IMG/VR virus record: IMGVR_UViG_3300024261_000014
Span: 19,880-83,879 of that record
DNA: 64,000 nt
Reading direction: 5' to 3' (one strand)
Origin: a virus
The position numbers were made by a program, and so were the translations under genes. A model generated the notes under the pieces. The model searched no databases and was not told the DNA's origin. It worked only from the letters and a program-made list of their open reading frames with translations. How positions within the stretch are numbered: position 1 is the stretch's first letter; the number at the start of each line of letters is the position of its first letter. Shown here in pieces: positions 5,563 to 38,086 of this stretch.

Positions 5563-5583
5563 AATAACCCTTTAATATAAATA

Positions 5584-6967: not shown

Positions 6968-6994
6968 CGTTTAATATCCTTGTTCTTAACTCGG

Positions 6995-8487: not shown

Positions 8488-8594
8488 TTATATATAAACG
8501 GGTCTTTTTTCTTTACATTCTGCAATTTCCTTTTAATCTTACGATTCATTCTAAAATCTTCTATCTTATTTAGTATCCAATACCACAATCTCAC
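8484..8594 (-). CDS. Micro-ORF, 36 aa, basic
   Basis: A GTG at 8594-8592 overlaps the TGA of the SIS-HAD gene (GTGA), and the frame ends in a TGA that overlaps the ATG of the SGNH gene (ATGA). Such overlaps at both ends are the junction style of real genes here. The product is basic, with an N-terminal tryptophan-rich part (VRLWYWILNKIEDF) and a lysine-rich middle. No family is recognised. It may only serve to couple translation across the gap. Confidence 0.45.
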   Translation of the reverse strand: MRLWYWILNKIEDFRMNRKIKRKLQNVKKKDPFIYK

Positions 8595-9574: not shown

Positions 9575-10595
9575 CTGTTTCTTCCTCATTTATTTCTTTA
9601 AACATATTAACAACATGCTCTAAATAATTTTTCACATCATATACTTTTAAATATTGTTCTCTTGCATAAGTAGTTACTTTATCATTAAGGTTATTAAAAT
9701 CTTCTACAATACCACCAACTACCTCATTTAAATCTGACCAATCATATTGAACTCCGAAATATGTTTTACCCTCTACATACATATTTGGTGCAGTATCAAC
9801 TAACCCCATTGTTGGTTTAACCATTATTGTATTCGTTGCCCATATCTCAAAATCTCTAAAACATATCTCACCCATACCAAATGGTGATAAACAAACTTTA
9901 GAATTATATAAATAGTTAATATAATCTTGATATGGTAACATATCTTTATTAGATATAAAATCAATACTCAACTCATTCCACGCACCCCTTCTATGTTTAG
10001 TATATGGAATATCATTTCTCATTTCGTGTTCATAATTCTCTTTGTGTTCTGCTTGATATATTGCACAAACATCATATGGTTTAACATTTGCTGATGGCAT
10101 TATTAAATCCTTATCAAATAAATGTCCTTGTAAATATCCAAGATTCCATCCACTCAATGCTATTTTTTTCCACTCATCTTCAGTAATATCGTAACTTAGG
10201 TTATTTTCACCTTTACCCCAAAACCATCTACCAAAATCCGCGGGAGTATTATATAATTCTCGTTTTAATAACTGATTCTTTATATAACGCGTTGGGTTAG
10301 TATTTCTCATCACCTCAATACCACCCATCAATGATGTAGAATCTGAACCATCAAACATCATAAATCTACCACCTTGTGTTAGTTTCTCTACATTTTCAGT
10401 TCCCCATTCAATACTATATTTCAATGGTATCTTTTTATTTATAAAATCATGCATACCAATAAACATTACATCAAAATCATCTGATTCAGTTATTTCTACA
10501 CCATAATTTCTAAAATGGTCTTTACACGCCATAAATATTCTAAATGTTGGTTCGTTTCTATCAAGAGTCGGATTTATAACTTTTACTTTTATCAT
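9567..10595 (-). CDS. Glycosyltransferase-like protein (GT-B type)
   Basis: The 342-residue protein ends in a segment typical of GT-B donor domains: VCLSPFGMGEICFRDFEIWA followed by a hydrophobic strand and KPTMGLVD, resembling exostosin and Glyco_trans_1_2 families, where the glutamate pair contacts the nucleotide sugar. The N-terminal half has strand-helix repeats including FDVMFIGMHDF. It overlaps the split glycosyltransferase fragment upstream by 4 bases (ATGA) and the SIS-HAD gene downstream. Specificity unknown. Confidence 0.6.
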   Translation of the reverse strand: MIKVKVINPTLDRNEPTFRIFMACKDHFRNYGVEITESDDFDVMFIGMHDFINKKIPLKYSIEWGTENVEKLTQGGRFMMFDGSDSTSLMGGIEVMRNTNPTRYIKNQLLKRELYNTPADFGRWFWGKGENNLSYDITEDEWKKIALSGWNLGYLQGHLFDKDLIMPSANVKPYDVCAIYQAEHKENYEHEMRNDIPYTKHRRGAWNELSIDFISNKDMLPYQDYINYLYNSKVCLSPFGMGEICFRDFEIWATNTIMVKPTMGLVDTAPNMYVEGKTYFGVQYDWSDLNEVVGGIVEDFNNLNDKVTTYAREQYLKVYDVKNYLEHVVNMFKEINEEETDG

Positions 10596-10834
10596 AGATG
10601 GGTATCCATTATTATTGCACTATAAAGTTGATTTTGGGTTTCTTGTTTATGTATGGTTTTTGGGTGATACAAACTCAATTCCTCTTGTGGTGGTATATGA
10701 GCAAAGGTTTTACAGCCCGTAATCATTTCGTGTACTTTTCTTCTCCACCTAATATCTGGTGAATTTCTAAATACTCTTGATTGAAAATCGGGCGAATTAA
10801 TTATCGGAACTTTATATTTTACTTTGACTTTCAT
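10592..10834 (-). pseudogene. C-terminal piece of a split GT2 glycosyltransferase
   Basis: The 80 residues include FQSRVFRNSPDIRWRRKVHE and HPKTIHKQETQNQLY. This is the conserved tail of phage and bacterial GT2 enzymes, normally found after the catalytic domain on the same chain. The matching N-terminal part is encoded at 11529-12116, and an HNH endonuclease gene lies exactly between. The piece has its own ATG inside the end of the endonuclease gene, so it may still be made and join its partner, as with split nrdA in Aeromonas phage Aeh1. Whether it is functional is open. Confidence 0.6.
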
Positions 10835-11492
10835 CTATAACCTTTACATCTAATATTAATTTATCACTCTTTTTAAGATTTGTTTCCCAATCTATAAATC
10901 TTAGATTACTTATATCACCAATTCTTTCAGGCTCAATACCCCACTCAAATCCCAATCTCACAGGTATTATGTGGTCTAATTGATAAGCTCCACTTACACC
11001 ACATTTATCACGAGGCTTATCATAATTTTCTAATGTATGAATTGGTTGATTATTCGTAATACTTCTAACTTGTCGTTGATATTTTTTATACTCACTCAAT
11101 TCACTTAAATATTCTTCGTAACTTATATTTTTTTCTTTTAGTATGGATTGTATTCTAACTGAATCTTCTCCCGTTTTAGTAAAAACGCTATTTTTTCGCA
11201 ACCAATCTTTTTGATGCTCTGAAACTCCACCATTTCCATTTCTTCTTCGACTATCCCATATTTTATCATTCCACACCAGTTTCCGCCCCTTAAGCGCCTT
11301 ACCAATCTTTTCTTTATGTTCTTTTGTCAGCGTTTTTAATTTGCCACTACAACTTTTACAATTCAGTTTTTTATTCTCTGAATTATTTCTAGCATATTTA
11401 CTTTTATATGTAATTGTAACATTACACTTAGGACATTTCCTATTAAATAAATTCGGTATTTCTTTATTCCATCTCATATTAATAAGTATCAT
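10812..11492 (-). mobile_element. HNH homing endonuclease with NUMOD3-like motif
   Basis: The product starts with a zinc ribbon (CPKC near residue 20 and CKSC near 45), continues with a NUMOD3-like DNA-binding motif (TKEHKEKIGKALKGRK) and ends with an HNH domain: CGVSGAYQLDHIIPVRLGF and later NLRFIDWETNLKKSDK. Such endonucleases cut an intronless or unoccupied allele and copy themselves into it. It sits between the two halves of a GT2 gene. Only 36 noncoding bases separate it from the N-terminal half, and its 3' end overlaps the C-terminal half, so no room is left for a group I intron core. Confidence 0.85.
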
Positions 11493-11528
11493 TTGATTGT
11501 ATTTTTCACTAAGTAAAAGATAAAATAA

Positions 11529-12116
11529 CTAAATTTTCTTTTCATCAACAATTAAGTCCATTTTTTTCAAAAGTTTATATTCTTCACTTTCAGTATCCAT
11601 AACCTTTTCATTATAGATTTCATATGGTGCATTAACTCTCCATCCCCATTTCTGAATATGATGTTCTGTTATACCATCGACTGTATTCACTCTTGGTACA
11701 TATATTAAATCAACTCCATCATTCATTTCTATTATTTGTTTAAGTTGTTGTAATAATGTTTCGTGTGGATATTCATCGGCATCTATATGCATGATGTAGT
11801 CTCCACTACAATTTTCTATAACTGAATTTTTTTGTGAAGCAAAATCACCATCAAGTTTTCTATGATACACCTTGATAGTTTTCATATCTTCGTGTCCATA
11901 TTGTTGAACCCAACTCGTTATAACTTCTTGTACTTGTTCATCCTCACCATCAACGCAAATAACTATTTCATCTTCCACATCTGTTTTGTGGATAAGGATT
12001 TCTAATAAATTATTTAACTCTTCAGATTCATTGTGGACAGTAATACCATAACTAATTTTCAAATCCAGCCTCAATTTGTTTTGTGAACTTTCGTTCCATT
12101 TCTTTACTAAATTCAA
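11529..12116 (-). CDS. N-terminal piece of a split GT2 glycosyltransferase
   Basis: The catalytic GT2 core is present: ISYGITVHNESEELNNLLE, EIVICVDGED, and GDYIMHIDADEYPHE with the DxD. The chain then stops shortly after WGWRVNAPYEIYNEK, where intact relatives continue into the tail encoded at 10592-10834. The last residues (IVDEKKI) are probably run-on into the inserted DNA. The ATG at 12116 lies 65 bases inside the upstream gene; a TTG at 12062 preceded by GAGG would give a more standard N-terminus. Activity as a split enzyme is possible. Confidence 0.65.
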   Translation of the reverse strand: MNLVKKWNESSQNKLRLDLKISYGITVHNESEELNNLLEILIHKTDVEDEIVICVDGEDEQVQEVITSWVQQYGHEDMKTIKVYHRKLDGDFASQKNSVIENCSGDYIMHIDADEYPHETLLQQLKQIIEMNDGVDLIYVPRVNTVDGITEHHIQKWGWRVNAPYEIYNEKVMDTESEEYKLLKKMDLIVDEKKI

Positions 12117-12558
12117 CTAATGTATCTTTTGGTATTTTATTGTAATCCACTTCGAGATACACTCTTCGTTTTAAACATTCTCTTCTATCAAATGTTCTGT
12201 AATTTTTATAATTCTTAACTAATGCTTTTAATCTTCTGTACATTACTCGTGTTTGAGCTTTTGAAACTCTATCAGGTAAATCTGCTGCAATTGCTTCTTC
12301 TTCAAACTCTAACCCACCAAGTTTACCAAACAACTTCTCAACTTTACTTTCTGTTAATGGTCTTGTAATTGCAGTATCTAATACTAATCCCGCAACAAAT
12401 CTTTTAATTCGTTTAGTAGTTTTTTTTCTAAATCGTAAATCTGGATTTAGTAATAATATGGTTCTCTTGTATCCACGAGTCTCACCCTTTGATTTATACA
12501 TAAAGGTTACTATCTGACCTGGTTCAACTTTCGTCCATGCGGTATTCCGTACCGACAT
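12052..12558 (-). CDS. Conserved phage-type hypothetical protein, basic
   Basis: I do not recognise the family. The 168-residue product is rich in lysine and arginine, especially in the middle (FRKKTTKRIKRF and RVMYRRLKALVKNYKNY), and starts with a small beta-rich part (VEPGQIVTFMYKS). The charge suggests binding to nucleic acid or assembly on it. It is followed downstream by the split glycosyltransferase and preceded, 2 bases away, by a zinc-ribbon protein gene. No enzyme motif is visible. Confidence 0.5.
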   Translation of the reverse strand: MSVRNTAWTKVEPGQIVTFMYKSKGETRGYKRTILLLNPDLRFRKKTTKRIKRFVAGLVLDTAITRPLTESKVEKLFGKLGGLEFEEEAIAADLPDRVSKAQTRVMYRRLKALVKNYKNYRTFDRRECLKRRVYLEVDYNKIPKDTLVEFSKEMERKFTKQIEAGFEN

Positions 12559-12560
12559 TA

Positions 12561-13022
12561 TTAATCAAGGTCCTTGATTATACCCATCTCTTTACAAGCA
12601 TCTAAGAACTCGTGTTGACCATAGGTTTTAGCATTATCTACATCTAATATACTATCATGTCCTTTATACTTATCATCCTTTAGTTCTAAATCTGTTAACT
12701 TACGAACTTCTGCTAATTTATAATTCCAACTACTCTGAACTCCATCTGGATAAACAACTCCTAATTTCCCCATATTCAATACTGATGGAAACCACATGAG
12801 TTCTCGTTCTTCATCATAGAATGAAATATCATTCATTAATTGTGATGAACCTATTTGTGCTTTTTTCAAATCAGGAGAATCCCAAGTGTATGTTGAATTA
12901 CTTGTGAACCCACAATTAAAACACATAAATGAAGAAAACTTTTTCTCTTCAAGTACTTGTTCATCCTCAAAACATCGTTTATCATTAAAACAATTTGGAC
13001 AAGTTATTACTTTTTCAGCCAT
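12561..13022 (-). CDS. Zinc-ribbon protein, 153 aa
   Basis: A zinc ribbon is formed by CPNC at residues 8-11 and CFNC near 34-37, with spacing usual for a treble or ribbon fold. The rest is acidic and aromatic with no recognised catalytic motif (for example ELMWFPSVLNMGKLGVVYPD). Its stop is 2 bases before the basic hypothetical gene and its start follows the glycosyltransferase gene by one base, so it belongs to the same transcript. Function unknown. Confidence 0.55.
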   Translation of the reverse strand: MAEKVITCPNCFNDKRCFEDEQVLEEKKFSSFMCFNCGFTSNSTYTWDSPDLKKAQIGSSQLMNDISFYDEERELMWFPSVLNMGKLGVVYPDGVQSSWNYKLAEVRKLTDLELKDDKYKGHDSILDVDNAKTYGQHEFLDACKEMGIIKDLD

Positions 13023-13023
13023 T

Positions 13024-14352
13024 TTATACCTTCTTCAATTTGGGTAATTTTAACCCTTTGTTATCTTCTACTTTACTTAACTTCGGCAGTTTCAATTCTA
13101 CTTGCTGGGGAACTGATGCTATAATTGGGTCAAGGATAGCTTCAAGTTTATTCTTCATTGCTTCATAAGAAAATTGTAACTTAGTGTATGCTTGTAATTG
13201 TTTACCCTTTACCACGTACTTACTATAATTATTGTGAATCTCAGTAAAAATACTCGATGCAACATTATAATTGACAGTAATCCACTTATTTTCTGGTGAA
13301 TCAAACGCCATATCCTTTGGAAACGCATCCATAGGAACTTTTGTTAATGAACCAGGTAATAACTGAGCATAATTCTTATGTAAAAAATCTACATGACCAC
13401 TCCATCCTGGAGCAACAATTGGTTTACCACTCTGTGCAGCTTCTAATAATGGTCTACCGAAACCCTCTCCGTGAGTAAATGTAACGTGGGCCTTTACTTT
13501 TGGATGATTATATAATTCATTCATCTCACTATCCGTAAAATCTCCATGTATCAAATATATATTCGGAAGTTTACTACCAACCACCCCTTCTTTAATATAA
13601 GTAATTTTATTTAAAATATCTTCCCTATCTAATATAGAAAAATCTGCACCACTGGTTTTCAATAATAATGCTGGCTGATTTCTTGTATTTTTGAAAGTTT
13701 CCAAGAATACTTTAATTAACATACCAACATCTTTTCTATCTTTCCCGATACTTCCACCTAACCAATGACCCGTAAACAAATAACAAAAATCCTCTTTAAT
13801 TGGTTTGAATGCACGTTTAGTAGTTTTACCAAATGTTTTTGTTTCTTTATAAACATTAGTATCTACACCCTCAAATAAAACACTCATTGGTTTATTCACT
13901 TTTAATTCTTGATTCTTGTTTGGGTTTTGTTTATCTTCAATATTAAATGCTGCTTGTTCAAAAACTGCTTTTGAAAACTCTGATGTAAATATAGTTTCAT
14001 CCATACGATTTACACCCTCTACCCATCGTGGTATAGGTATTGTAGATTCAATTCCAGCAGTCATACCAACATTCTTCCTACCGATTGGGTTGAACTCTCC
14101 AGGAATAACTATATGTAAATGTACATCGGGTTGTTTTTGTAAGTCGGGCCCGGTCATTAAATGTGATTTAATTTTATCGTGTTGTGAGTTATTTTCTTCC
14201 AATGCGGTCATTGGTGTATTACCCCACCGAACTGAATTTATTTTCACATCGTATTTATCTAATTCAATCAATGCACTACAAATATCCCTTGAGTGATTTC
14301 CGTATCCACTACGAGTTTTGACTGGTGCCGTTACTAATATCATTGGTTTCAT
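13024..14352 (-). CDS. GT-B glycosyltransferase (GT4-like)
   Basis: The 442-residue protein starts ILVTAPVKTRSGYGNHSRDI, like the acceptor domain of GT4 enzymes, and its C-terminal domain carries THGEGFGRPLLEAAQSGKPI, the EX7E-type donor site, then VAPGWSGHVDF. It is a retaining transferase using an NDP-sugar. The C-terminus has two copies of a LKLPKL motif (residues about 420-440); the same LPKLK motif opens the next gene's product, so the two proteins may share a binding partner. The two genes are 3 bases apart. Confidence 0.8.
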   Translation of the reverse strand: MKPMILVTAPVKTRSGYGNHSRDICSALIELDKYDVKINSVRWGNTPMTALEENNSQHDKIKSHLMTGPDLQKQPDVHLHIVIPGEFNPIGRKNVGMTAGIESTIPIPRWVEGVNRMDETIFTSEFSKAVFEQAAFNIEDKQNPNKNQELKVNKPMSVLFEGVDTNVYKETKTFGKTTKRAFKPIKEDFCYLFTGHWLGGSIGKDRKDVGMLIKVFLETFKNTRNQPALLLKTSGADFSILDREDILNKITYIKEGVVGSKLPNIYLIHGDFTDSEMNELYNHPKVKAHVTFTHGEGFGRPLLEAAQSGKPIVAPGWSGHVDFLHKNYAQLLPGSLTKVPMDAFPKDMAFDSPENKWITVNYNVASSIFTEIHNNYSKYVVKGKQLQAYTKLQFSYEAMKNKLEAILDPIIASVPQQVELKLPKLSKVEDNKGLKLPKLKKV

Positions 14353-14355
14353 ATT

Positions 14356-15792
14356 CTACGCCTTATATGTGTTAACTTTATGTCTTGGTGTCCATTTCTC
14401 AAATGCAGTTTCCATATGGTCTATGAAATTCTTACACATCCATCGTGCACTCATCATAGATTCATCACTACACACCCATTCGTGTCCAATAAACCCACAC
14501 TCTTCTCTTGCTTCCTTACCCATTTCATACCATTCTTTTATGGCATTTCCAGCATCCTCCCAATCACATCTATCATCAAAGATATATGGTGTTGGTACTG
14601 AACCCATTAGTGAACGAGTCTTAGGCCAGACTGGTTTACACCACTCACCCCAAGTTAATTCTGAGTTATGTTCCCACTTCTTCCAATCGTGTAATGATAG
14701 TAATTCCTTATAATCATCTGAAGTTAAGAACTTATCATTAATTTTAAATCCTACTTGGTCTTGTAATCCACCCGTAACATTAACAATAATTGGTGTTCCA
14801 CTCATTAATGATTCACAAGTTCCCAATCCGAATCCTTCATTGGATGCAATATTCATTGTTACATCGGCAATATTATATAGGAAATTCATTTGTTTATTAT
14901 CAAGTTTCTTATCACTAAACACTACATTTATTTCTGGTGCAATTGCATTAATTAATGCTGGTAAATCAGTTCCATTCCCATCAACTGGTTGAGTATGCAT
15001 TACATAGGTAACTTTATCTCTCTCTTCGGGTGGGATTGAATTAACAAAATGTTGAAATGCAAGAATACAATCACCCATCATTTTCCTACGAATATTTCTA
15101 TTCACATATAACAATGTGAAGTTATGGGGCCTATTACCCAATAACTCATTCTTAAATTTCCTCATTTCCAATAACTCAGCATCATCTTTAATTGGATAGA
15201 ATTGTGTTTCGTTAATTCCGTGTGGTAAGTATGTAGAATCCCAATCTGTTCTTGGTTTTGTTTTTGCAACTTCATTAACTAATCCAACAGTCTGTTTGGA
15301 AATATTCATAATCAAATCACAACTCTCATAAAAGAACTCATTATAATGTGGTGCAGGTAAATCATCCCAAATATTATAATAAAATATAGGAATGTTCTGT
15401 CTTAATTCGTGTTCCATGTGGTATAACCACCCCCAAAATCTTGGGTCTGTGTAGTGTAGAATAGCATCAGGTTTCTCAAGTTCCATAATCTCTTTTAAAA
15501 TATCTGGATTACCATAACCATCAATTGGATAAACTTTTAAATATCCATCTTTCACACCAGTCTCTTCCAACACGGCATCGTGCATATCAACCACTTTACC
15601 TTTATCTGGATGTTCTATTGCTCCACCAATCTGAACCCAATCGTATTTATCGATTGTACCCAATACAAATTCTCTTGACATCGTACCAACCCCACTTGAC
15701 ATACGAAGGTCATCTGATAAAAGTAGTATCTTTTTCTTCTTACGAGCTTGTACTTCTTTTACTGACTTTAATTTTGGTAATTTAATATCCAT
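14356..15792 (-). CDS. GT-B glycosyltransferase (GT4-like)
   Basis: This 478-residue protein begins MDIKLPKLKSVKEVQ, a short basic extension resembling the tail of the neighbouring GT, then KILLLSDDLRMSSGVGTMSR, a GT4 acceptor-domain start. The donor site is ASNEGFGLGTCESLMSGTPI, followed by VNVTGGLQDQVG. Length and motif order fit a full GT4 enzyme. It lies upstream of the other GT4 gene in the transcript, suggesting two successive sugar additions. Specificity unknown. Confidence 0.8.
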   Translation of the reverse strand: MDIKLPKLKSVKEVQARKKKKILLLSDDLRMSSGVGTMSREFVLGTIDKYDWVQIGGAIEHPDKGKVVDMHDAVLEETGVKDGYLKVYPIDGYGNPDILKEIMELEKPDAILHYTDPRFWGWLYHMEHELRQNIPIFYYNIWDDLPAPHYNEFFYESCDLIMNISKQTVGLVNEVAKTKPRTDWDSTYLPHGINETQFYPIKDDAELLEMRKFKNELLGNRPHNFTLLYVNRNIRRKMMGDCILAFQHFVNSIPPEERDKVTYVMHTQPVDGNGTDLPALINAIAPEINVVFSDKKLDNKQMNFLYNIADVTMNIASNEGFGLGTCESLMSGTPIIVNVTGGLQDQVGFKINDKFLTSDDYKELLSLHDWKKWEHNSELTWGEWCKPVWPKTRSLMGSVPTPYIFDDRCDWEDAGNAIKEWYEMGKEAREECGFIGHEWVCSDESMMSARWMCKNFIDHMETAFEKWTPRHKVNTYKA

Positions 15793-21827: not shown

Positions 21828-23375
21828 TTATGCACCACCACCACCTTTTGGTGGTAAGTTATGAACTAATATATCACTTGAAAAATAAGTATCAATATCC
21901 TCTACATCTAATGAATAGAAAGTTTCATCGGTAGTTACTTCGACTGTTGATGTTACTTCAATAAGGTTACCATCCTTATCCATTAGTTCATCACCAACTT
22001 CAATTTCAAATGCTCTAAGGAATTTATACTCATTTGCTCGTTTTACAAATATCATCCCCATCCAACCAAACTTATAAGTATCATTTATTATATAATGTTC
22101 TGGTTGTACATTAGAAGATACCTCAAGTACAACTGAACCACTCGAAACACTATTGGTTAAATCTGTTGATGAATATGCTGCAAAATCGTGGTCACTTAAA
22201 CTCATTCCAACTGGTTGATATGATTTAACCACATCACCAACTTCTACATCTTGTATTTGTTTAGTACTACCATCATACATACGAATTAAACTTCCACTCG
22301 GTGTTGTAGTACCTCTATTTGCAACCAGTTTCCACTTATACCAATCATTATCTATAGATGAACTTACACCTGTAGGTGGATTTATTTGTATGTATTGTGG
22401 ACTATAATAAGAACACAATACTTCTGTATGTTGTGGTGTGAATAATATATATGCTCTACCAGTCCCTAAGTATTTATTTCCATTACCATCTAAACTACCA
22501 GAAGATGGAATAAATTTTTCTGGATAAGTAGATATACCAGTACTCGTCTCGATATCATACCAATATGTCATACTGGTGTGAACGCGCTCTTTATAATCCG
22601 AATTTGATTCCCAAGTTTGTTCAACTCCATCCGCATCTGTATAGGTAGATGAGTATATATTTCTTTGTTCTGCATTAGTTATATATGAGTTAAAACTTAT
22701 ATTGAATGGACTAACTAATAATGAACCATCTTCAGTTTTAGATTTTAAAACAAAATCTGGCCAAGTTCCTACTCCACGATTAGCTGCAATTGATGATGAA
22801 GTAAAACCATCTATAAATGTCTCACCAACATTTGCACTCTGAAGTATAGTTCTAAATTTAGTTTTATCCATAGAACCAGTAGCCATTGTATATAATGTAT
22901 CATCTGCTCCGTAACCATTTGGTGTATCAACGAAAAGATGAAATTTACTTGAAGATGCCTCTACCCGAGAATTAACATATGGTGCTGAACTATCATAAAC
23001 AAAAGAAGAACTTATGTTATGATTAGCGAAACTTGCGGATATACTTGAAAGTTTAGTTTGTCTTGGATTTTGCATATCTGCCCAAGTAGAACCATAAATA
23101 TTTACACTACTATAACTTTGTGTAACAGCATATTGTGCAATTCTATCAAAGAAATCCGAACCTTGTACTGATAAAGGTATCTGTACACTTGGATTTGTAT
23201 TAAACTCAAATATTTTTGTATCATTACTACCACTCTCAATAGTAAAATCATATGCACCAATAAATGCTGAATAACTATGATTTGGCCAATCTCCTGCACT
23301 ACCTGTTATGTAATCACTAATTTCTTTTACTTTAGCGTTTACATCTGATTTTTGTGTATAATTTACTATACTCAT
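21828..23375 (-). CDS. Hint-domain protein B, 515 aa
   Basis: The last 150 residues form a hedgehog/intein-type Hint domain: GSLIRMYDGSTKQIQDVEVG opens it (block A, GDVV), PEHYIIN holds a block-B-like histidine, and TFYSLDVEDIDTYFSSDILV followed by HN closes it; seven residues follow. The usual Cys1 is Thr, so only C-terminal type cleavage or ligation may remain. The first 365 residues (for example TKIFEFNTNPS, LFTP and NPPTG segments) faintly recall an ATP-grasp fold; this is a weak impression. A paralogue with 515 residues lies at 23962-25509. Probably a processed virion or secreted protein. Confidence 0.7.
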   Translation of the reverse strand: MSIVNYTQKSDVNAKVKEISDYITGSAGDWPNHSYSAFIGAYDFTIESGSNDTKIFEFNTNPSVQIPLSVQGSDFFDRIAQYAVTQSYSSVNIYGSTWADMQNPRQTKLSSISASFANHNISSSFVYDSSAPYVNSRVEASSSKFHLFVDTPNGYGADDTLYTMATGSMDKTKFRTILQSANVGETFIDGFTSSSIAANRGVGTWPDFVLKSKTEDGSLLVSPFNISFNSYITNAEQRNIYSSTYTDADGVEQTWESNSDYKERVHTSMTYWYDIETSTGISTYPEKFIPSSGSLDGNGNKYLGTGRAYILFTPQHTEVLCSYYSPQYIQINPPTGVSSSIDNDWYKWKLVANRGTTTPSGSLIRMYDGSTKQIQDVEVGDVVKSYQPVGMSLSDHDFAAYSSTDLTNSVSSGSVVLEVSSNVQPEHYIINDTYKFGWMGMIFVKRANEYKFLRAFEIEVGDELMDKDGNLIEVTSTVEVTTDETFYSLDVEDIDTYFSSDILVHNLPPKGGGGA

Positions 23376-23851: not shown

Positions 23852-23975
23852 CAGTTACACAACCATCTCTAACAACTTCGGTATCTTTTATTGTCTGTAC
23901 TATCTCATCACATTTTTCGTGTGATAGGAATGTTGGTATTTGAATTGAGAATTTAAATGCTTTATTTTCCCCCAT
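23823..23975 (-). pseudogene. Remnant of a fifth tandem 2OG-Fe(II) oxygenase (50 aa)
   Basis: An ATG at 23975 inside the end of Hint gene A opens a 50-residue frame, MGENKAFKFSIQIPTFLSHE followed by KCDEIVQTIKDTEVV. This matches the N-terminal 40 residues of oxygenase copies 1-4 (FKYYIEKENFLSDSE in copy 4). The iron-binding core is missing and the frame stops at 23823, after entering the GNAT gene. It is in the same place relative to Hint gene A as copy 4 is to Hint gene B, so a deletion in a duplicated Hint-oxygenase unit is likely. It could still be translated. Confidence 0.65.
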
Positions 23976-25509
23976 GTCCTGGCGCATTATGAACTAATAT
24001 ATCTGATGAAAAGTATGTATCAATATCTTCTACATTGAGTGAATAAAAAGTTTCAGTAAGATACTTCTCTTCCACTGCAGTGACATCAATCCAATTACCA
24101 TCTTTATCAAATAATTTATCATCCACTTCTACCTCATAACCTTTTCTAAACTGAAAGTATCCCAAACCACCCCTATCCATATAGACTCCTGCTAATTGTG
24201 GAATCTTATAAGTATCATTTATCAAATAGTATAAATTTACTTCTTCTGAATGTACATCCACAACAACTGAACCACTTGCAAAACTATCACTTACATCTGT
24301 AGAACTCCAACTTAAATAATTCATATCACTATCTGGCATTCCCAATGAACCAGAACCACCTGGTTGATACGATTTAACTACATCACCAACCTCTACATTT
24401 TGTACCAATTTAGTACTATTATCATACATACGAATTGTTGCACCATGTGGTGTAGATGGGCCTTGGTAGGGTTTTAATGTCCACTCGTACCAATCATTAT
24501 TCAGAGATGAACTTACACCTGTTGGGGCGTTTAATAATGAAAACTTACTATTATAGTAAGTACCAAGTGTAATTACTTTTTCGGGTGTTAATAATTGTAC
24601 ACTTCTACCATTACCTATGAATTTTCTTGCACCATCATCACTACCTGATGAAATAATATAATCCTCTACATAATTACCCGTTCCATCTTCCACATCTATA
24701 CCATAAAAGTGTTGCATACTCTCTGTGAATGGTGTACCCACACTCCAATTTACTTCATTTCCATCAGCATCTGTAAAAACACTTCCGGTTAGCTCTCTTA
24801 CTTCTGCACTACTGATGTATGAATTAAATGAAATCGAACCATCAGCTGTAACCATAAATGATGCATGTTTAGCTAAATCTTTTAAAACATAATCTGGATA
24901 ATCACTAACCCCTTTATTTGCTGCTATTGAAGCTGAATTAAATGCCCCAATTAAAGAATCACCACCAATTGGTGATGCCCCAAGTATAGTTCTAAAACTT
25001 GTTTTAGTAAATGAACCACTTGATATCTGATACAAAGTATCATCCGTGTTACTTGGTGAAGCTACGAATACATGGAAACTCCCCGAATTTGAAGCAGTTC
25101 CTCTTTTTGCTAAGTATTGTGCTTGGTCTGTATAATTAAATGATGAACTAATATTATATTGAGCAAAACTTGCAGATATTGTAGGTTGTGTTGCAGTAGG
25201 TGGATTATATGTTCCAAATTGAAAACTACCATATACTTGTACATCTGAATAACTTTGTGTTGAGGCATATTGTGCAATATCATCATATATGTTTCCATAT
25301 AGACTACTCATCTGAGTACTATTGATTGCAGTATTCATCTCAAATACCTTTACATCATCACTACCACTTTCAATTGTAAAATCATAACACGCAAGTATTC
25401 CTGCGTAAGATGAATCAGGCCAACCACCAGCACTACCTGTAATGTAATTAGATAGTGATTCTAACTTCGTTTCTACATCTGATTTCTGACTAAATATTGT
25501 TATTGACAT
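23962..25509 (-). CDS. Hint-domain protein A, 515 aa
   Basis: Paralogue of the protein at 21828-23375, alike over its whole length and identical in size (both begin MSI, then QKSDV, NYITGSAG and YDFTIESGS). The Hint part starts HGATIRMYDNSTKLVQNVEV and ends TFYSLNVEDIDTYFSSDILV then HN and a short APGHGGK tail. The residue at position 1 is Ser or Thr, and the block-B histidine is a tyrosine here (VNLYYLIN), so the two copies may differ in activity. AGGAG precedes the ATG and an ATATTTATA element lies 19 bases upstream. Likely a late, self-processing protein. Confidence 0.7.
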   Translation of the reverse strand: MSITIFSQKSDVETKLESLSNYITGSAGGWPDSSYAGILACYDFTIESGSDDVKVFEMNTAINSTQMSSLYGNIYDDIAQYASTQSYSDVQVYGSFQFGTYNPPTATQPTISASFAQYNISSSFNYTDQAQYLAKRGTASNSGSFHVFVASPSNTDDTLYQISSGSFTKTSFRTILGASPIGGDSLIGAFNSASIAANKGVSDYPDYVLKDLAKHASFMVTADGSISFNSYISSAEVRELTGSVFTDADGNEVNWSVGTPFTESMQHFYGIDVEDGTGNYVEDYIISSGSDDGARKFIGNGRSVQLLTPEKVITLGTYYNSKFSLLNAPTGVSSSLNNDWYEWTLKPYQGPSTPHGATIRMYDNSTKLVQNVEVGDVVKSYQPGGSGSLGMPDSDMNYLSWSSTDVSDSFASGSVVVDVHSEEVNLYYLINDTYKIPQLAGVYMDRGGLGYFQFRKGYEVEVDDKLFDKDGNWIDVTAVEEKYLTETFYSLNVEDIDTYFSSDILVHNAPGHGGK

Positions 25510-30496: not shown

Positions 30497-33001
30497 TCAA
30501 AAAAATCTTTCAATACTTTGCTGTTTATCTACGACGGCTTCCCACCCCAAACTTTCGTAGAACATTCCTATCTTTTTACTCATTGCTTGTTCAAACATCT
30601 TAGTATGGTCAATGTTCGTTTTAATAAAATCTAATATTTGAGGCGGGTCCTCATATCCTTTATAACCAATTACATCAAATCCAAATTCATTATTCTTTAG
30701 GTAAACCCACCTAATCTTATTACCATTAGTAATCTTCTCATACTTTCTACCTTCAAACCAATGATGTAATATAGAATTATAATTTATTGCTGCTTTAACA
30801 TGGACTGGTGCACCCTTTTTATATTTACTGAATGATGACTCTTCATCTTTAGAAATATATTTACCTATACCTTTTACTCCGATAGGATTTGCCAATACAC
30901 TATAATGTAGCATATGTAGATTCCTCTTAAACTTACTGATTCTTTCATCAATCTTTTCCTTTGGAACATCTGCCAATATATCATCTAATACATTTTGTAA
31001 TAAATCTTTCATCGCAGGAGCAAAATTACTTCTGACTGTATCCAAACCTTTTACTTGTGTTTTGTTTACCTTTCTACCAGCATCATTGATGATTCGTAAA
31101 CCATATCGTTTCTTCGTTACGAACAAACCTGTCTTTGCGATTACCTCTTGTTTGATATCAAACACGTGTTCATCTATATTCAAAAATTTCTTGGCGAAAT
31201 AATCGTAACTTAAATTTAGATAATCTTGTACCTCTCCACATATCTCCATAATTCTTTGTGTCATCATAGTTTCAGATAATTTCTGATTTGGAAACCTTTT
31301 CTCAACTAATGGTACTGCGGATGCGAAAATAGAATCTGTATCAATATAGATAACATAATCCTTATCAGTACCTAACTCTTTATTATAAAAGTGGTTGGTA
31401 ATTTTCTTACTGAACTTAATCAATGATTGACCTGTGGTTGTGGTTGCTTCTGCATTATCTAAATCATAAAATCTAAATACTGGTAATCCCAATACACCAT
31501 ATAATGAATTTAGAAGAATCTTCTGAAGATATTGTCTCCTATCAAAATATTGAGATTTCTTTTTATCACCTTGGTCGTGAAACTTCTTCACAAGTTTTCT
31601 CATCTCTACTCGTTCATTAAACCACTTTGTGAGTAGAGCAGGAATCAATCCTTGTTTATCAGTACGATACATAACCCCATTACTTGATATACTTAATCCA
31701 GTCTCATCTAAATAACTCTCCAGTTCTGTATTGGTTATTTGTTGTATTTCCTTACCCTTTGTGTTAATCATAGAATAAGTTTTCGTATGTCCTGTCTTTA
31801 GATACTGGTCTACATCCCATTCCAAAACCTGCCCAACCTTAGTTTCAGGTGAGATATTCAATGAACGAATAACACTTGGATACATACTTGTGATATCTAA
31901 ATCATAAACCCAATCGTGTTTACCTTTTTGTGGGTCTTGTACATATGCACCAGAGAACTTTTCATCATCCCCTCTTCGTTTAGGATTTCTTGGTTTGTTT
32001 GGTGCAACAATACCCATCTTTTTTAAATAAACTAATATCGCACCCTCTAAATATCTTGAACTCATAAACACATCTTCATATGGGACATGTCCTAAATGTG
32101 CTATACCACAAGCAACTCCGATATAATCCAACTTATCATTTAACTCCACAAGAATACGAACATCTCGAATGTTATAATCTATAAACTTCTGTAAATCATT
32201 TTCAAATAAATCATTGAGTGTTCCATCATACTCAATTTTCTTCATACCAACTTCAACTTCACCAATGTAATCTAAACGATAACTTGATTGTTGAATTGGC
32301 GAGAACTTTTTATATAATGCAAGATAATCTAACACACTAACACCTGCAATAACAAACTTCTTTTTGTATTCATTGTAATAACAATGTCTGATAGGTGATA
32401 GCATCTTTGCAACTTCTGAACCTAAAACTCTGACTGTTCTATTATATAGATACGGAATATCAAAATAATCAATGTTCCACCCACTTAATATTGTAGGATT
32501 TATTTCTGCGTATTTCTGATAAAATCTTGTCAATAATTCGTTTTCAGTTTTAAATAACTCTACTGATGTATCACCATTTTCATAATTTTGTATAGTATTT
32601 TTAGAATCTAAAGTATAACATATATACTTTTTCATTATCTCATCATATATTGCAATAGATGTAATTGCAGTTTCTGCTTTTTCTACATCTGGAAAACCAT
32701 CAACCACTTCCACCTCGATATCAAAATAGAAAGTTCTATTTCCCTCTGCAACATCATCCGAATCCGTGTATTGGTCAACTAAAAATCTTGTAGTGATTGG
32801 TACATCACTCTCATATAAACCTGGGTCATCATCATCCCAAGTGTACACCTTTTTAACTTTACTACCATCAAGTGTATGATGTAAACCACTTGAATGTTTT
32901 ACATATGCGTATTTTTTATAAGGTACAATAAGATGGCCTCTTCTGTCATCCCAAACATGCACTTTGTTTTTTCTCTTATCATAAAAAACATTTTGATACA
33001 T
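30497..33001 (-). CDS. gp43: Family B DNA polymerase, gp43-like
   Basis: Replicative polymerase with proofreading. Exonuclease motifs are FYFDIEVEV (residues 91-99), NIDYFD (176-181) and YNIRD (276-280); polymerase motif A is DLDITSMYPS (367-376), motif B KILLNSLYG (494-502) and motif C YIDTDS (552-557). All carboxylates are present. The 834 residues are somewhat below T4 (898). It has its own early promoter at 33034-33063 and lies downstream of the TonB-dependent receptor gene. The end (SIERFF) resembles a clamp-binding peptide. Confidence 0.95.
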   Translation of the reverse strand: MYQNVFYDKRKNKVHVWDDRRGHLIVPYKKYAYVKHSSGLHHTLDGSKVKKVYTWDDDDPGLYESDVPITTRFLVDQYTDSDDVAEGNRTFYFDIEVEVVDGFPDVEKAETAITSIAIYDEIMKKYICYTLDSKNTIQNYENGDTSVELFKTENELLTRFYQKYAEINPTILSGWNIDYFDIPYLYNRTVRVLGSEVAKMLSPIRHCYYNEYKKKFVIAGVSVLDYLALYKKFSPIQQSSYRLDYIGEVEVGMKKIEYDGTLNDLFENDLQKFIDYNIRDVRILVELNDKLDYIGVACGIAHLGHVPYEDVFMSSRYLEGAILVYLKKMGIVAPNKPRNPKRRGDDEKFSGAYVQDPQKGKHDWVYDLDITSMYPSVIRSLNISPETKVGQVLEWDVDQYLKTGHTKTYSMINTKGKEIQQITNTELESYLDETGLSISSNGVMYRTDKQGLIPALLTKWFNERVEMRKLVKKFHDQGDKKKSQYFDRRQYLQKILLNSLYGVLGLPVFRFYDLDNAEATTTTGQSLIKFSKKITNHFYNKELGTDKDYVIYIDTDSIFASAVPLVEKRFPNQKLSETMMTQRIMEICGEVQDYLNLSYDYFAKKFLNIDEHVFDIKQEVIAKTGLFVTKKRYGLRIINDAGRKVNKTQVKGLDTVRSNFAPAMKDLLQNVLDDILADVPKEKIDERISKFKRNLHMLHYSVLANPIGVKGIGKYISKDEESSFSKYKKGAPVHVKAAINYNSILHHWFEGRKYEKITNGNKIRWVYLKNNEFGFDVIGYKGYEDPPQILDFIKTNIDHTKMFEQAMSKKIGMFYESLGWEAVVDKQQSIERFF

Positions 33002-33033: not shown

Positions 33034-33063
33034 AATATAACACTAAAACCATATACTTGTCAA
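33034..33063 (-). promoter_or_regulatory. Early sigma70-like promoter for DNA polymerase
   Basis: On the minus strand: TTGACA at 33063-33058, 18-base spacer, TATATT at 33039-33034, about 33 bases before the ATG of gp43. The upstream AAAAAAGTAC is shared with the promoter at 18327-18356. It separates polymerase expression from the receptor gene upstream. Confidence 0.75.
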
Positions 33064-33080: not shown

Positions 33081-33103
33081 GGGGGATATTTTTTCAATCC
33101 CCC
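33081..33103 (-). terminator. Hairpin after the TonB-dependent receptor gene
   Basis: GGGGGAT and ATCCCCC pair perfectly over 7 bases with a 9-base loop, 12 bases past the receptor stop. There is no long U-run after it, so it may be a weak terminator or an RNA 3' end stabiliser. With the promoter that follows, it isolates the receptor gene as its own unit. Confidence 0.55.
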
Positions 33104-33114
33104 AAATCACCATT

Positions 33115-35853
33115 TTAAAAATCAATAGTTAATCCTATGTTTGCATATCTTGGTGTTCCAAGAAATACTTCAGAATTATGAGCTAAGTGAAGTTTATCAC
33201 CATACCCATTGTATTGACTATTATCAACTGCATCTTGTACATAAACTTCATCAAGTGCGTTAAAGATGTGACCTGTAATAGTCAAATCTAAACCAGCAAT
33301 ACTTGGAAGTTTGTAAGATGCGTGTAAATCAAGTTTTGAGTAACCAGGAGCTTCCCAAACTTGTGTTCTATCTGCAACTCCATCAGAATCCACTTCTCTT
33401 GAACCAGGACTCCAATCTGCATAGTTCTTATCATATACATTGTAAAGTGCTTGTACTCTCAATCCCTTAATAGGTTTAAGTGTTACACCCAATATATAAG
33501 ATGATTGTGGTTGGTCACCAACAAATAACCCATCAAGTGCATATGCATATTCAGTAGTTTGATAACCAATTACTTGGTTGTCATCGTTATATTGAGATTC
33601 TTGGTAAGTACCATTGGCATCACCATCGAACTTCCAACCACCGAAAGAAGCAATCAAATCAAGTTCTACCATTTCGTGTGGTAATACTTTTACTTCAACT
33701 TCTGTACCTCTATGTTTCTGATTAACACCTCTTAAAAAGATTACATCAGTATCACCTGAATCTCCTTGACCCGTGTCAACATTACGAGTAAGGTTTCTAT
33801 CTTTCCAATCTGTGTTATAAGCAGATACTTTCACGGCAACTTTATCGTTTGCATATCCAACACCAACTTCTGTTGATAAGAATTTCTCATTGTCTGGGTC
33901 GGATGCGACCGTACCAGAATAATCAATTACATTATCAAGAATTGGTGCTTTTTCCACATATCCTGAATTTATAAAAGTAGTAACACCATCTAACCATTCA
34001 TAGTGTACTCCACCTTTAACTTGATATGATGAAATAGCATCAGCAGTAATTTTCTCGTTTTCTACTGAAAAATGGTCTTGATATGAATATTTAATAGATG
34101 ATATTCCACCCATTCCATATACATTTAGATTATCTTTCGTGTAGTTACCTTGAACAAATCCACCTAACCAATCGACAGTAGTAGTGTTATGATAAGCAAT
34201 AATATCACCTAACCCAACAACTTTTCCATCTGGTGCATTGTCATCAGCAAAATCAACATAGTAATCACCACCTAATAAATCACGAACTTCACGAGCGTGT
34301 TCTATTTCAGCAGTTCTCCAATCGATACCAGTTTGAAATTCTAAATCTTCATTAACTTTATAATTTAATTTAGAAATTAATCCATATGTATCTTGTCTGT
34401 TGATTGAGTTTCTAAGAATACCTGTAGAACGATGGTCTGTTTCAGAATAATCAGCATCGATATTAGTACGATTCTGTTCAATCTCTCCATTCCAATCCCA
34501 CATCCAAGGCGAACTTGAATACCAAGCATTATCTGCTACGGCTGGTGTTCTCATTACACTACCATAAGTTCCTGTTCCACCACCTGAACCACCACTCCAA
34601 TAAAGAACTGATGATAATTTAGTTTTATCATTTATCTCTAAAAAGTGATTTAGATTCACTAATGGTTTATGGAAGAAATTCTCCCTTTCATTAAGAAAGT
34701 TTGAATTTTTTCTTTTGGTTGTGTTTGCTCCATACATATACCAATATTGTTCTCCAGTATAGTCGGAACTAACTGGTGCCCAATTTTGACTAAAGAATCT
34801 ACCAGCTTCAGTTTCGAATTTGTTACCCTCTGCAAAAGCATCAGTATCATATCCGTCAATATCACTTGCTAACTCTTGTGAGTAAGTAGCAATATTCTGT
34901 TTGTATAGATTTTGTCCGTGTCTTTGTGGTGCACCGATTGCGTACAACTCGAATCGTTGTTTATCGGATACTGCATAAGAACTTCCAAAATAATAAGCCC
35001 AAGCATCTGTCCAGTTTCCATCAATGATACCATCACCAGTCTTACGAACAATTGTTCCAGCCAGTGCAAGTTTATCACCAATCAAACCTGAATTGTAGTT
35101 AATAGTAGTTTTAATAAAACCACCATCTCCTGCTTCTTGTTTGAACTTACCACCCTTTTCGTATTTAGCAGGGTCTGTAATGATATTCATAGTTCCACCA
35201 ATAGAAGGTGTGGCAAGATTTACAGCTGATAGTCCTCTTTGTAACTGAATTGATTGAGCAGCATCTGCAACCCCATCCCAATTACTCCAATAAACCCATC
35301 CGTTCTCCATATCATTTTGGGGAACACCATTAATCATCACCGCAACATTTCTTTGGTTAAACCCTCGTACATTAATACGAGCATCACCAGCACCACCACC
35401 TTGTTGAGTTGCATATACACTTGGTGTAGTATTCAAAGCCATTGGAACATCTTGACTACCAAGTCTAAGTTCCATTTCTTCTTTACTAACCATTGAATAA
35501 GCAACAGGTGTTGTTGCAACAGCTCTTGAAGCCAAAACTTCAACATCTGTTAGAGTAAGAGCATCAATTGCCAAAGCAATATTCACTTTTACTTCACTAT
35601 CACCCACAACAACCTCTTTAGATTGAGATGAGTATCCTATGAATGAAGCAGTAATAGTATAAGTTCCAGCTTCTACTGAAATTGTAGTAAGACCTGTCTC
35701 GTTAGTAACACCACCGAGTTCAGTTCCCTCTACCACTACATTTGCTCCAACCAAAGGGTTATATTCAACATCTTTAACATCAACAACAATGGATTGAGCG
35801 AACAATCCTGTCATCAATACGAAAGATGCTATTAGTTTACGATATATATTCAT
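33115..35853 (-). CDS. TonB-dependent outer-membrane receptor (FCB type)
   Basis: A complete 912-residue receptor: signal peptide at 1-20 (IASFVLMTGLFAQ) without lipobox, a CarboxypepD-regulatory domain at about 22-103 (GANVVVEGTELGGVTNETG), a TonB-box-like stretch (LTDVEVLA), a plug domain at about 115-235 (DARINVRGFNQRNVAVMING, then NGWVYWSNWD), and a 22-strand-type barrel ending YANIGLTIDF with terminal Phe. Such proteins import siderophores, vitamins, glycans or peptides using the TonB motor. The type is normal in Bacteroidota and Marinimicrobia but not in phages. G+C looks higher than in flanking genes. It has AGGAG before the ATG and hairpins on both sides, like a moron. Substrate unknown. 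Confidence 0.95.
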   Translation of the reverse strand: MNIYRKLIASFVLMTGLFAQSIVVDVKDVEYNPLVGANVVVEGTELGGVTNETGLTTISVEAGTYTITASFIGYSSQSKEVVVGDSEVKVNIALAIDALTLTDVEVLASRAVATTPVAYSMVSKEEMELRLGSQDVPMALNTTPSVYATQQGGGAGDARINVRGFNQRNVAVMINGVPQNDMENGWVYWSNWDGVADAAQSIQLQRGLSAVNLATPSIGGTMNIITDPAKYEKGGKFKQEAGDGGFIKTTINYNSGLIGDKLALAGTIVRKTGDGIIDGNWTDAWAYYFGSSYAVSDKQRFELYAIGAPQRHGQNLYKQNIATYSQELASDIDGYDTDAFAEGNKFETEAGRFFSQNWAPVSSDYTGEQYWYMYGANTTKRKNSNFLNERENFFHKPLVNLNHFLEINDKTKLSSVLYWSGGSGGGTGTYGSVMRTPAVADNAWYSSSPWMWDWNGEIEQNRTNIDADYSETDHRSTGILRNSINRQDTYGLISKLNYKVNEDLEFQTGIDWRTAEIEHAREVRDLLGGDYYVDFADDNAPDGKVVGLGDIIAYHNTTTVDWLGGFVQGNYTKDNLNVYGMGGISSIKYSYQDHFSVENEKITADAISSYQVKGGVHYEWLDGVTTFINSGYVEKAPILDNVIDYSGTVASDPDNEKFLSTEVGVGYANDKVAVKVSAYNTDWKDRNLTRNVDTGQGDSGDTDVIFLRGVNQKHRGTEVEVKVLPHEMVELDLIASFGGWKFDGDANGTYQESQYNDDNQVIGYQTTEYAYALDGLFVGDQPQSSYILGVTLKPIKGLRVQALYNVYDKNYADWSPGSREVDSDGVADRTQVWEAPGYSKLDLHASYKLPSIAGLDLTITGHIFNALDEVYVQDAVDNSQYNGYGDKLHLAHNSEVFLGTPRYANIGLTIDF

Positions 35854-35881
35854 AAATCGTCTCCTCTGTTTGTTTTGTTAA

Positions 35882-35907
35882 GACACATTTTTTACCAGGT
35901 GTGTCAA
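35882..35907 (-). promoter_or_regulatory. Possible promoter and operator of the receptor gene
   Basis: On the minus strand TTGACA lies at 35907-35902, with no good -10 at 17-18 bases (TCTTAA at best). An inverted repeat, GACACA at 35882-35887 and TGTGTC at 35900-35905, covers the -35 edge and the spacer, where a repressor could bind. The -10 is weak, so the promoter call is tentative. Confidence 0.35.
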
Positions 35908-35912
35908 CTGCC

Positions 35913-35934
35913 TGTGTATGTGAAATCATACACA
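35913..35934 (-). terminator. Perfect hairpin after nrdJ
   Basis: TGTGTATG and CATACACA pair over 8 bases with a 6-base loop, starting 3 bases past the nrdJ stop. No U-run follows. It lies just before the presumed receptor promoter and may separate the two units. Confidence 0.45.
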
Positions 35935-35937
35935 TAT

Positions 35938-37959
35938 TTAGTTTGCGTAATCTTGGTCATCATTATCACCAGTCGTAGGTGTGATTTCTATATCACAAAA
36001 ATCACCATCACAAAACTTCTCTACATTAGCTTCTTCTGCTTTGATTACACCAAAGTTTAGTTTACCTAATTTCTTAACATCTTTATTATATTGGTTTTCA
36101 TCAATTGCTTCATATGGCATTTGTTTGTATGCTCCATAATCATGTCTTGGTAGTAATGAAATACCCTTCAAATGATATTGGTAATAGTTTAATACTTGTG
36201 GTATCATTTCTCCCTCTGTTTCAGGATTAAATGTGACCGTACAACTTACTTGATTATCAGCCCAATGTCTTTGCATAAATGCTGCTAATGAGAATTGTTC
36301 CCATATGGATAACTCTCCGACTGTTCTAATTCCCTCTCCTACATCGACAGGAACTTCAACAACCATAGTGGTATCCTCTGAACCAAACGCAGGTTCTACT
36401 TTATATCCTGCCTTTTTCAAAGGTTCTAACAAATCTGAATGTTTCGATACTCTAATTCTTCTTGTATAGAATCTTGATTCTGGATAATGTAATCCAGGTG
36501 TTGAACCTGCTAATAGTGATACTGTCCCACTTGGTTTAACACTTGTAGTCTTAATTGATTTTGGTACTGCAAACCAATCTGAATACATTTTATCCCACTC
36601 TTGTATGGTATCATATCCATCTTCCAACCAAGTCTTTAACTCGTGTAATCCACGATTAGTTATGAACTGAGCAATTCCACTCACACTACATCCAATTCTT
36701 CTGTTTCTCAACATAACTCTATTTGTATCACTCCAATGAGTTCTACCAAGTGTTACAGTTTTTGCATACAAATATGCATATTTTAAAGTTCTTTTATAAT
36801 CCTCTAATGAGTCGTGATTGTTTGGGAATGTTTCCACTAAACAACATAATTCATAACTTTCTAATGATTGTTCTAAACAAGGATTACCACCCGCAACTCT
36901 ATGGTCTTTATCATCTCCACCATTCTTCATACGAGAGTATTTTCTCATGTTGTCTAACCACGCAAATCCAGGCTCACCATTATCATTAATTCTTTTTGAT
37001 GCCTCTGTATAATCCATACCGAGTTCTGCAAATATTGAATTATTAGACGTCCAACCATATTGTTCTCTGTGTGGATTTACTTTATAATTCTTTAAATCTA
37101 AGTATTCTTCTGAATTAGGGTCTCCAAATACAATCTCAGCAGTTCTTCTAACATTTCCTGCCACTACACACTTACCGATTAAATTCATAATATCTACGAT
37201 TGTTGTGATTGTTATTGGTTTTCCACTATTAGCTTCTAATGTTTCTCTAACAGTCTCGTGTACTTCCATTAGTGGTTCAGGACCTGAACTTACTCCACCA
37301 AAACCTTTGATTGGTTCACCTGCTAATCTGACTAAACTATAATCAAATACAACTTCTCCCTGTCCGTGAAAATAACTTTCTAATAAAAGTTGTAATGATT
37401 CTACCCAACCCTCACGAGTATCTGGTATTTGAAAGTTTTGTTCATCTCGTTTGATATCAATACCTTTAATATCTATCTCTCCAGCACCTTTAGTATCAAA
37501 TCCTACTCCAACACCTAACATTGAAGCATCCATAAGGAAACAAAATGGTTTTGCGTAATCTTCTTTGATTGTTTTAGTGGATACGAATGCACAATTGTTT
37601 AGTGCTGCATACAAACCCTTTTCTTCTGTGATTGCTGTTCCCATCGCCCATAAACCACGACCTGGTGGTAAGAACTTCATTGTAAAGATTCTTTCGTACA
37701 TATCTTGTGCTGATTTTTGTGCTTGCCATGGATTCCAACCTAATTGGTGAGATTCAATCCAATTCATTTGCATTGTATAAGTTCCCTCTACAACTCTTTT
37801 GACGGTTTCCCACCATCTCTCGTTTTTCCCATCTTCTTTAATACGTGAATACGTTCTCATATAAACTAATTCACCCAACCCATTGAAACCAAAAGGCGGT
37901 TTCTTTCTTTTATACTTATTAATAAAATTTTCTGATAATTTAAACTTATGCGTACCCAT
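35938..37959 (-). CDS. nrdJ: Adenosylcobalamin-dependent (class II) ribonucleotide reductase
   Basis: Makes deoxynucleotides for phage DNA using coenzyme B12, without oxygen or a second subunit. The pattern is that of monomeric RTPR: ALNNCAFVST with the first redox cysteine, GGNPCLEQSLESYELCCLVE with the thiyl cysteine, glutamate and partner cysteine, SVKPSGTVSLLAGSTPGLHY for phosphate, and a C-terminal CxxxxC pair (FCDGDFCD). Length about 673 residues versus about 740 in Lactobacillus. The ATG at 37959 is preferred to 37974 because GGAG lies before it. Its 3' neighbour is the TonB-dependent receptor. Confidence 0.85.
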   Translation of the reverse strand: MGTHKFKLSENFINKYKRKKPPFGFNGLGELVYMRTYSRIKEDGKNERWWETVKRVVEGTYTMQMNWIESHQLGWNPWQAQKSAQDMYERIFTMKFLPPGRGLWAMGTAITEEKGLYAALNNCAFVSTKTIKEDYAKPFCFLMDASMLGVGVGFDTKGAGEIDIKGIDIKRDEQNFQIPDTREGWVESLQLLLESYFHGQGEVVFDYSLVRLAGEPIKGFGGVSSGPEPLMEVHETVRETLEANSGKPITITTIVDIMNLIGKCVVAGNVRRTAEIVFGDPNSEEYLDLKNYKVNPHREQYGWTSNNSIFAELGMDYTEASKRINDNGEPGFAWLDNMRKYSRMKNGGDDKDHRVAGGNPCLEQSLESYELCCLVETFPNNHDSLEDYKRTLKYAYLYAKTVTLGRTHWSDTNRVMLRNRRIGCSVSGIAQFITNRGLHELKTWLEDGYDTIQEWDKMYSDWFAVPKSIKTTSVKPSGTVSLLAGSTPGLHYPESRFYTRRIRVSKHSDLLEPLKKAGYKVEPAFGSEDTTMVVEVPVDVGEGIRTVGELSIWEQFSLAAFMQRHWADNQVSCTVTFNPETEGEMIPQVLNYYQYHLKGISLLPRHDYGAYKQMPYEAIDENQYNKDVKKLGKLNFGVIKAEEANVEKFCDGDFCDIEITPTTGDNDDQDYAN

Positions 37960-38086
37960 TTTAAAACTCTCCATTTTTTGTCTTTTCTTTTATTTTCTTA
38001 TACCCATAATACATATAGTATATACTACTTAAATACACCATTATTTTTGAATTATTTAATTTTTTCTTTGAATTTTTTTGGAAGTT

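Follow-up and report, generated by a model that had tools for sequence, protein, structure and literature searches.

The window analysed, a 64,000-nucleotide stretch of an 83.9-kb viral contig, carries on its minus strand an open reading frame for a TonB-dependent outer-membrane receptor of 912 amino acids (33115-35853), which starts with ATG and contains no internal stop codon. The product consists of a putative signal peptide (residues about 1-19; the N-terminus, MNIYRKLIASFVLMTGLFAQS, is signal-peptide-like by eye), a CarboxypepD-regulatory domain (about 20-95), a TonB-box-like motif EVLASR (105-110), a plug (about 112-230) and a barrel (about 231-912) that ends in the aromatic residue Phe912. 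Pfam matches were obtained for Plug (7e-15, 55.9 bits against a cut-off of 23.9) and CarbopepD_reg_2 (4e-14), and the barrel is visible in the AlphaFold2 model, a prediction of moderate confidence (pLDDT 73, pTM 0.69), with 22 predicted strands as counted by hand. Foldseek neighbours of the model include Fiu, PqqU and FhuA, the nearest solved folds being 12-15% identical. No SusC family model appeared among the NCBIfam results for the receptor, giving no indication of a SusC/RagA protein, and a SusD partner was not found among the scanned genes (a subset of the window reading frames plus the neighbours). The description in the first-pass annotation of a complete receptor, with CarboxypepD domain, plug, full barrel and terminal Phe, agrees well with the intact frame, the Pfam matches and the predicted fold; the receptor in the window is a real, intact phage-resident gene.

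The upstream neighbour is nrdJ for the class II (adenosylcobalamin-dependent) ribonucleotide reductase (35938-37974, minus strand; TIGR02505, above cut-off), and the downstream neighbour is polB for a gp43-like family B DNA polymerase (30497-33001, minus strand; phrog_262, 1.6e-183). The window also encodes clamp-like, RFC/gp44-like, DnaB-like helicase, UvsX-like RecA and gp32 genes, together with the contractile-tail genes for tail sheath and tail tube. The profile matches of both flanks and the replication genes confirm the earlier assignment of a same-strand order nrdJ-receptor-gp43 inside a T4-like replication block. The hairpins said to bound the receptor both exist (33081-33103 and 35913-35934), but a terminator-like pattern is found only at 35913-35934, and there on the plus strand. 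A sigma-70-like promoter (33034-33063, minus strand; TTGACA-18-TATATT, 11/12, a consensus match only) precedes polB, which suggests that polB may be transcribed separately from the receptor gene. Elsewhere in the window (2335-15792), and in another contig (L341:211-4583), lies a large sugar/surface cluster with genes for DegT aminotransferase, cytidylyltransferase, several glycosyltransferases, a UDP-glucose dehydrogenase-like protein and carbamoyltransferase. Two tandem genes (21828-23375 and 23962-25509) encode 515-residue proteins about 50% alike, one of which gave two weak matches, one of HINT type and one to a structural protein.

A search for the same locus in related viral contigs had been proposed, and one scan of the viral collection detected relatives of the receptor in 313 viral stretches, mostly at the same site between nrdJ and polB; the contigs are fragments and partly redundant. 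The best 80 of the 313 are 71-100% identical to the receptor; almost all are preceded by nrdJ and followed by polB, the order found in most viral relatives. Identical junctions recur across several datasets (L002, L003, L004, L008 and L142), and chimeric assembly was rejected on this ground. Neither a chimeric junction nor absence from relatives, the two outcomes that the first-pass annotation had named against itself, was thus observed. Many viral contigs (ends of L167-L203) stop within or just beside the receptor gene, as expected if sequence shared between co-occurring phages breaks assemblies. These breaks, and the presence of misfiled cellular DNA in viral collections, are what could speak for a host gene carried passively by chance, a chimeric assembly or cellular contamination. 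Such an artefact is hardly credible, given the same junctions in many assemblies, the phage genes on both sides, and the single phage clade, purifying selection and phage-only leader RNA described below; the phage neighbours, the phage clade and the leader led to rejection of cellular contamination as well.

When the scan was made with the polymerase, the receptor was present in about 44 of the 50 contigs having at least 3 kb of room upstream, a count made by hand that shares some contigs with the 313-stretch scan. The six exceptions carry a tRNA or glutamine synthetase gene at the site, and the receptor was not found elsewhere in those contigs. Since some related phages have neither the gene nor its leader (L212 and L214-L218), the receptor is not essential to the group. 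In L029, L030, L040, L260, L263, L276 and L321 it occupies a second genomic place, following a conserved gene for a membrane protein or something similar; in many cases an Hsp20-like gene precedes it and queuosine-type genes come next (all named by eye from the sequences). The gene has therefore been retained though moved. Two of these receptor-bearing contigs also contain tmRNA genes (Rfam RF00023; L029:9910-10319 and L321:8365-8809), close to peptide deformylase-like and queuosine-type genes. Glutamine synthetase (Pfam Gln-synt_C/N) was observed in the nrdJ-polB interval of L215 (4955-5941) and also of L153, L159, L207, L219, L264 and L299, either by itself or next to the receptor, which it may precede or follow; with 9 of 113 distinct phage loci only, it was rejected as a fixed partner. 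Metabolic genes, a tRNA and a P-loop kinase seem to gather in this interval as in a hotspot. In L064, L282, L285 and L286, PolB shares only about 24-27% identity with its counterpart in phages whose nrdJ and receptor are otherwise similar, as judged from sequence a replacement by a distant form.

The close cellular relatives belong almost only to Fidelibacterota (Marinimicrobia, SAR406), and 121 of the 245 genomes of this phylum gave a strong match either to the receptor family or to the paralogue closest to it. In six host genomes a single clear orthologue was found in each, at 60-69% identity, the next best paralogue being 38% or less. The Fidelibacterota orthologues, 55-66% identical to the phage receptor, have the same domains, plug and TonB box, but are chromosomal, have other neighbours (SRAP, dnaG and others) and lack the leader pseudoknot; an attempt to read their substrate from these neighbours was abandoned, only housekeeping or unknown genes being found. 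In the tree of 157 sequences (LG+G4), the phage copies group without exception in a single clade (SH-aLRT 100) that is nested among the host sequences, which points to one capture event from Fidelibacterota. A transferred host gene, to be sought in a phylogeny of FCB-group receptors, had been among the origins first considered, and this nesting bears it out. From the ancestry of the gene we infer that Fidelibacterota are also the hosts of these phages. All cellular sequences except one lie outside the phage clade. The exception (L083:986-3736), in a 4.3-kb contig of a SAR406 MAG, branches deep within the clade, and keeping it apart from the phages costs 194 log-likelihood units (AU p 0.0027); it stands in tandem with a second receptor and lacks the leader, so it may reflect either transfer from phage to cell or an error of binning or assembly. 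Two further sequences filed under Flavobacteriales and Euryarchaeota MAGs (L082, NZWA01000089.1; L127, PBHZ01000014.1) are misbinned pieces of this phage group, as their neighbours identify them as phage contigs.

The intact frame had been taken as a sign of likely selection, and the median dN/dS of the receptor (0.168, Nei-Gojobori; 0.139 for polB and 0.096 for nrdJ) indicates that this selection is purifying. The gene is thus host-derived, fixed in the phage lineage and under purifying selection, as is asked of an auxiliary metabolic gene. The EVLASR motif does not vary across 113 phage and 42 host proteins; identity over the plug is 0.91 among phages and likewise 0.91 among hosts, and 0.89 when the two groups are compared. 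Extracellular loops, assigned by hand from the secondary structure of the model, are conserved among phages at 0.73 against 0.76 for strands, and a fixed difference between phage and host receptors occurs at a single site. Because the plug and TonB box are invariant or nearly so, the loops do not evolve fast and selection is purifying, the receptor most probably continues to take up the substrate of the host protein by way of host TonB, which is present in 6 of 6 candidate host genomes. The first-pass annotation offered three roles without choosing among them; the conservation of loops, plug and TonB box favours transport over surface camouflage, without proving it.

A functional receptor could nevertheless be kept for reasons other than feeding. 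If the phage or its competitors adsorb to the host orthologue, a phage-made version might dilute or replace it and so exclude superinfection. Lambdoid phage PA-2 replaces a host receptor with its own (Lc) porin, altering the outer-membrane receptor set of its host as may be the case here, but with a porin and not a TonB-coupled transporter. Between phages, receptor identity correlates with PolB identity at 0.26, compared with 0.65 for NrdJ against PolB, and on this basis receptor alleles have probably been exchanged between phage lineages, as for a host-matched surface trait. TonB-dependent receptors are, moreover, common phage receptors and are inactivated by phages, as by Cor acting on FhuA (PMC11436027), again a change in the host receptor set, though made by a small inactivating protein. 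Against such a role, the loops evolve hardly faster than the strands and are about as near to those of sister host receptors (0.67 against 0.69 for strands), phage and host show just the single fixed difference, and a decoy needs neither an intact plug nor a TonB box. We consider exclusion or receptor replacement unlikely as the main reason for retention.

The position of the receptor next to nrdJ, on the same strand in most phages, raises the possibility that it imports cobalamin for the B12-dependent NrdJ, and an enhancement of B12 uptake by viruses has been suggested for virioplankton of this type (PMC10547690). The hosts argue otherwise: one cobalamin riboswitch occurs in 10 of 12 host genomes and never at the receptor orthologue (it was not found in 8 host orthologue loci), and in several hosts it precedes a different receptor-like gene, the one checked having a plug domain. 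In addition, no BtuB family model matched the receptor, and the second phage lineage carries it away from nrdJ, near the Hsp20 and queuosine-type genes. A B12 supply is accordingly rated very improbable, and import of the orthologue's own substrate stays the preferred reading.

A leader RNA, an H-type pseudoknot of about 34 nt (35882-35915, minus strand), lies in the gap that separates the upstream gene from the start codon. Neither this leader nor the second genomic place of the receptor figured in the first-pass annotation. Stem P1 pairs 35915-35911 with 35899-35895, and P2, of 6 bp, pairs 35905-35900 with 35887-35882, the third loop being A-rich; the Shine-Dalgarno sequence AGAGGAG (35861-35867, minus strand) follows 14 nt below, after an A-rich spacer. 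The consensus, YNGG-CAG-NN-GRCRCA-CCNR-(N)-AAAAA-UGYGYC, was found in 195 of 197 phage loci, the relocated ones included, the two others being loci that start 2 nt before the reading frame. Among 132 distinct leaders, an A-rich spacer of 24-39 nt (median 29) separates the end of P2 from the ATG. In an alignment of 40 distinct sequences, hand-chosen for diversity and with one row misaligned by two columns, the pairs are canonical in 95.7% of cells, and doubly changed pair cells number 39 as compared with 8.8 (sd 2.4) in shuffles and 0-10 in slid controls, with three covarying pairs in each of P1 and P2. The ViennaRNA leader energies (z 0.1 and -1.1) are uninformative, as the program cannot fold pseudoknots.

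A pattern scan of the viral collection that was blind to genes gave at least 111 new loci, at least 102 of them with the receptor immediately downstream; among the loci listed, nine were too short to tell, all 102 testable ones precede the receptor, and no other gene was seen behind the pseudoknot. Each of eight large phage contigs holds one strong copy, and none was found in a large phage contig that lacks the receptor. The pseudoknot is absent from all host orthologue loci and was not found by covariance-model search, run with stricter filters and giving rough E-values, in the 245 host-phylum genomes, where the best match reached 29.6 bits (50-62 in phages) and none of the five best proved, on inspection, to be a receptor leader; a host origin of the leader was rejected accordingly. 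Rfam, preQ1-I included, gave no relevant leader match at E<=10. The leader pseudoknot is exclusive to the receptor gene and travels with it to the second locus, and it appears to be a new, previously uncatalogued RNA family found only in phages. Two other candidates were discarded: an operator common to the receptor and gp32, the gp32 leader of the same phage having no pseudoknot, and a -35 box at the TTGACA of the window leader, which overlaps P2 and is not conserved as such. In the stretch from the upstream stop codon to the pseudoknot, many loci (e.g. L029, L263, L276 and the window) have a TTYRCATAC box; it too has moved with the receptor gene, and is missing in some leaders beginning GCGG.

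The position of the leader suggests translational control of the receptor, in which simple occlusion of the Shine-Dalgarno sequence is unlikely because P2 ends 14 nt above it in the window. The preQ1-I riboswitch and the T4 gene 32 translational operator are short H-type pseudoknots with an A-rich loop upstream of an open ribosome site. The layout of the present leader is alike, but its P2 has 6 bp, Rfam gives no match and the gp32 leader lacks the element. The conserved loop nucleotides (CAG and the A-run) exceed the needs of pairing and suggest recognition by a ligand or protein. We tentatively propose, at somewhat less than even odds, that the leader is a phage-evolved switch, either riboswitch or protein operator, which times or tunes the outer-membrane import of the infected cell, RNA sensor and transporter forming one module among SAR406 T4-like phages. 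Alternatively, though this is rather doubtful in view of those loop nucleotides, it might serve as a 5' stabiliser of the mRNA or a ribosome standby element that raises receptor expression with no switch; here P2 ending 24-39 nt before the ATG, beyond the usual 30S footprint, and the lack of a riboswitch match in Rfam would fit.

Taken as a whole, a SAR406-infecting lineage of marine T4-like phages would have acquired a particular host TonB-dependent transporter in a single event, maintained its function and placed it behind the phage's own leader RNA. Translation would proceed from a phage mRNA that probably also covers nrdJ; the receptor would then pass through the Sec/Bam pathway of the host into the outer membrane, where host TonB would energise it. 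The infected cell would thereby maintain or increase its uptake of whatever the host orthologue imports, while the pseudoknot upstream of the ribosome site would set the timing or amount of translation via a ligand or bound protein. We hold this explanation to be somewhat better than an even chance; all of the evidence is derived from sequence, from which host identity, surface display, transport and regulation are inferred.

A phage-borne receptor alone is not unprecedented. The first-pass annotation knew of no described phage with an intact one, yet a putative SusC/TonB-dependent receptor was noted earlier in the marine megaphage Mar_Mega_1 and LR745206, with a proposed role in feeding (PMC9723777). 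The one viral protein with a convincing fold match over the full length is a SusC-named protein of an uncultured marine phage (BFVD A0A8D9FQQ5), though it is only 12% identical in the structure alignment. The megaphage receptor is likewise TonB-dependent, on a marine phage and proposed to serve feeding, but differs in its identity of about 12% by structure alignment, in its huge-phage genomes, and in that neither a conserved T4-like clade nor a leader RNA was reported for it. In the open-access literature, which was the scope of the search (subscription papers and preprints lying outside it), the present receptor family and its leader are not described, and the conserved phage receptor family together with its leader RNA appears new.

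Metabolic genes of phages usually encode cytoplasmic enzymes or parts of photosystems. The phages that bear the receptor probably control uptake by the infected cell and, if this is true, a conserved and selected importer would mean that viruses act on what enters and leaves the cells of an ocean group that is abundant and uncultured. The leader offers a compact, testable RNA family, the ligand of which would reveal either the cargo of the receptor or the means by which the phage controls its timing, and the pair of receptor and leader may serve as a marker linking uncultured phages to SAR406 hosts.
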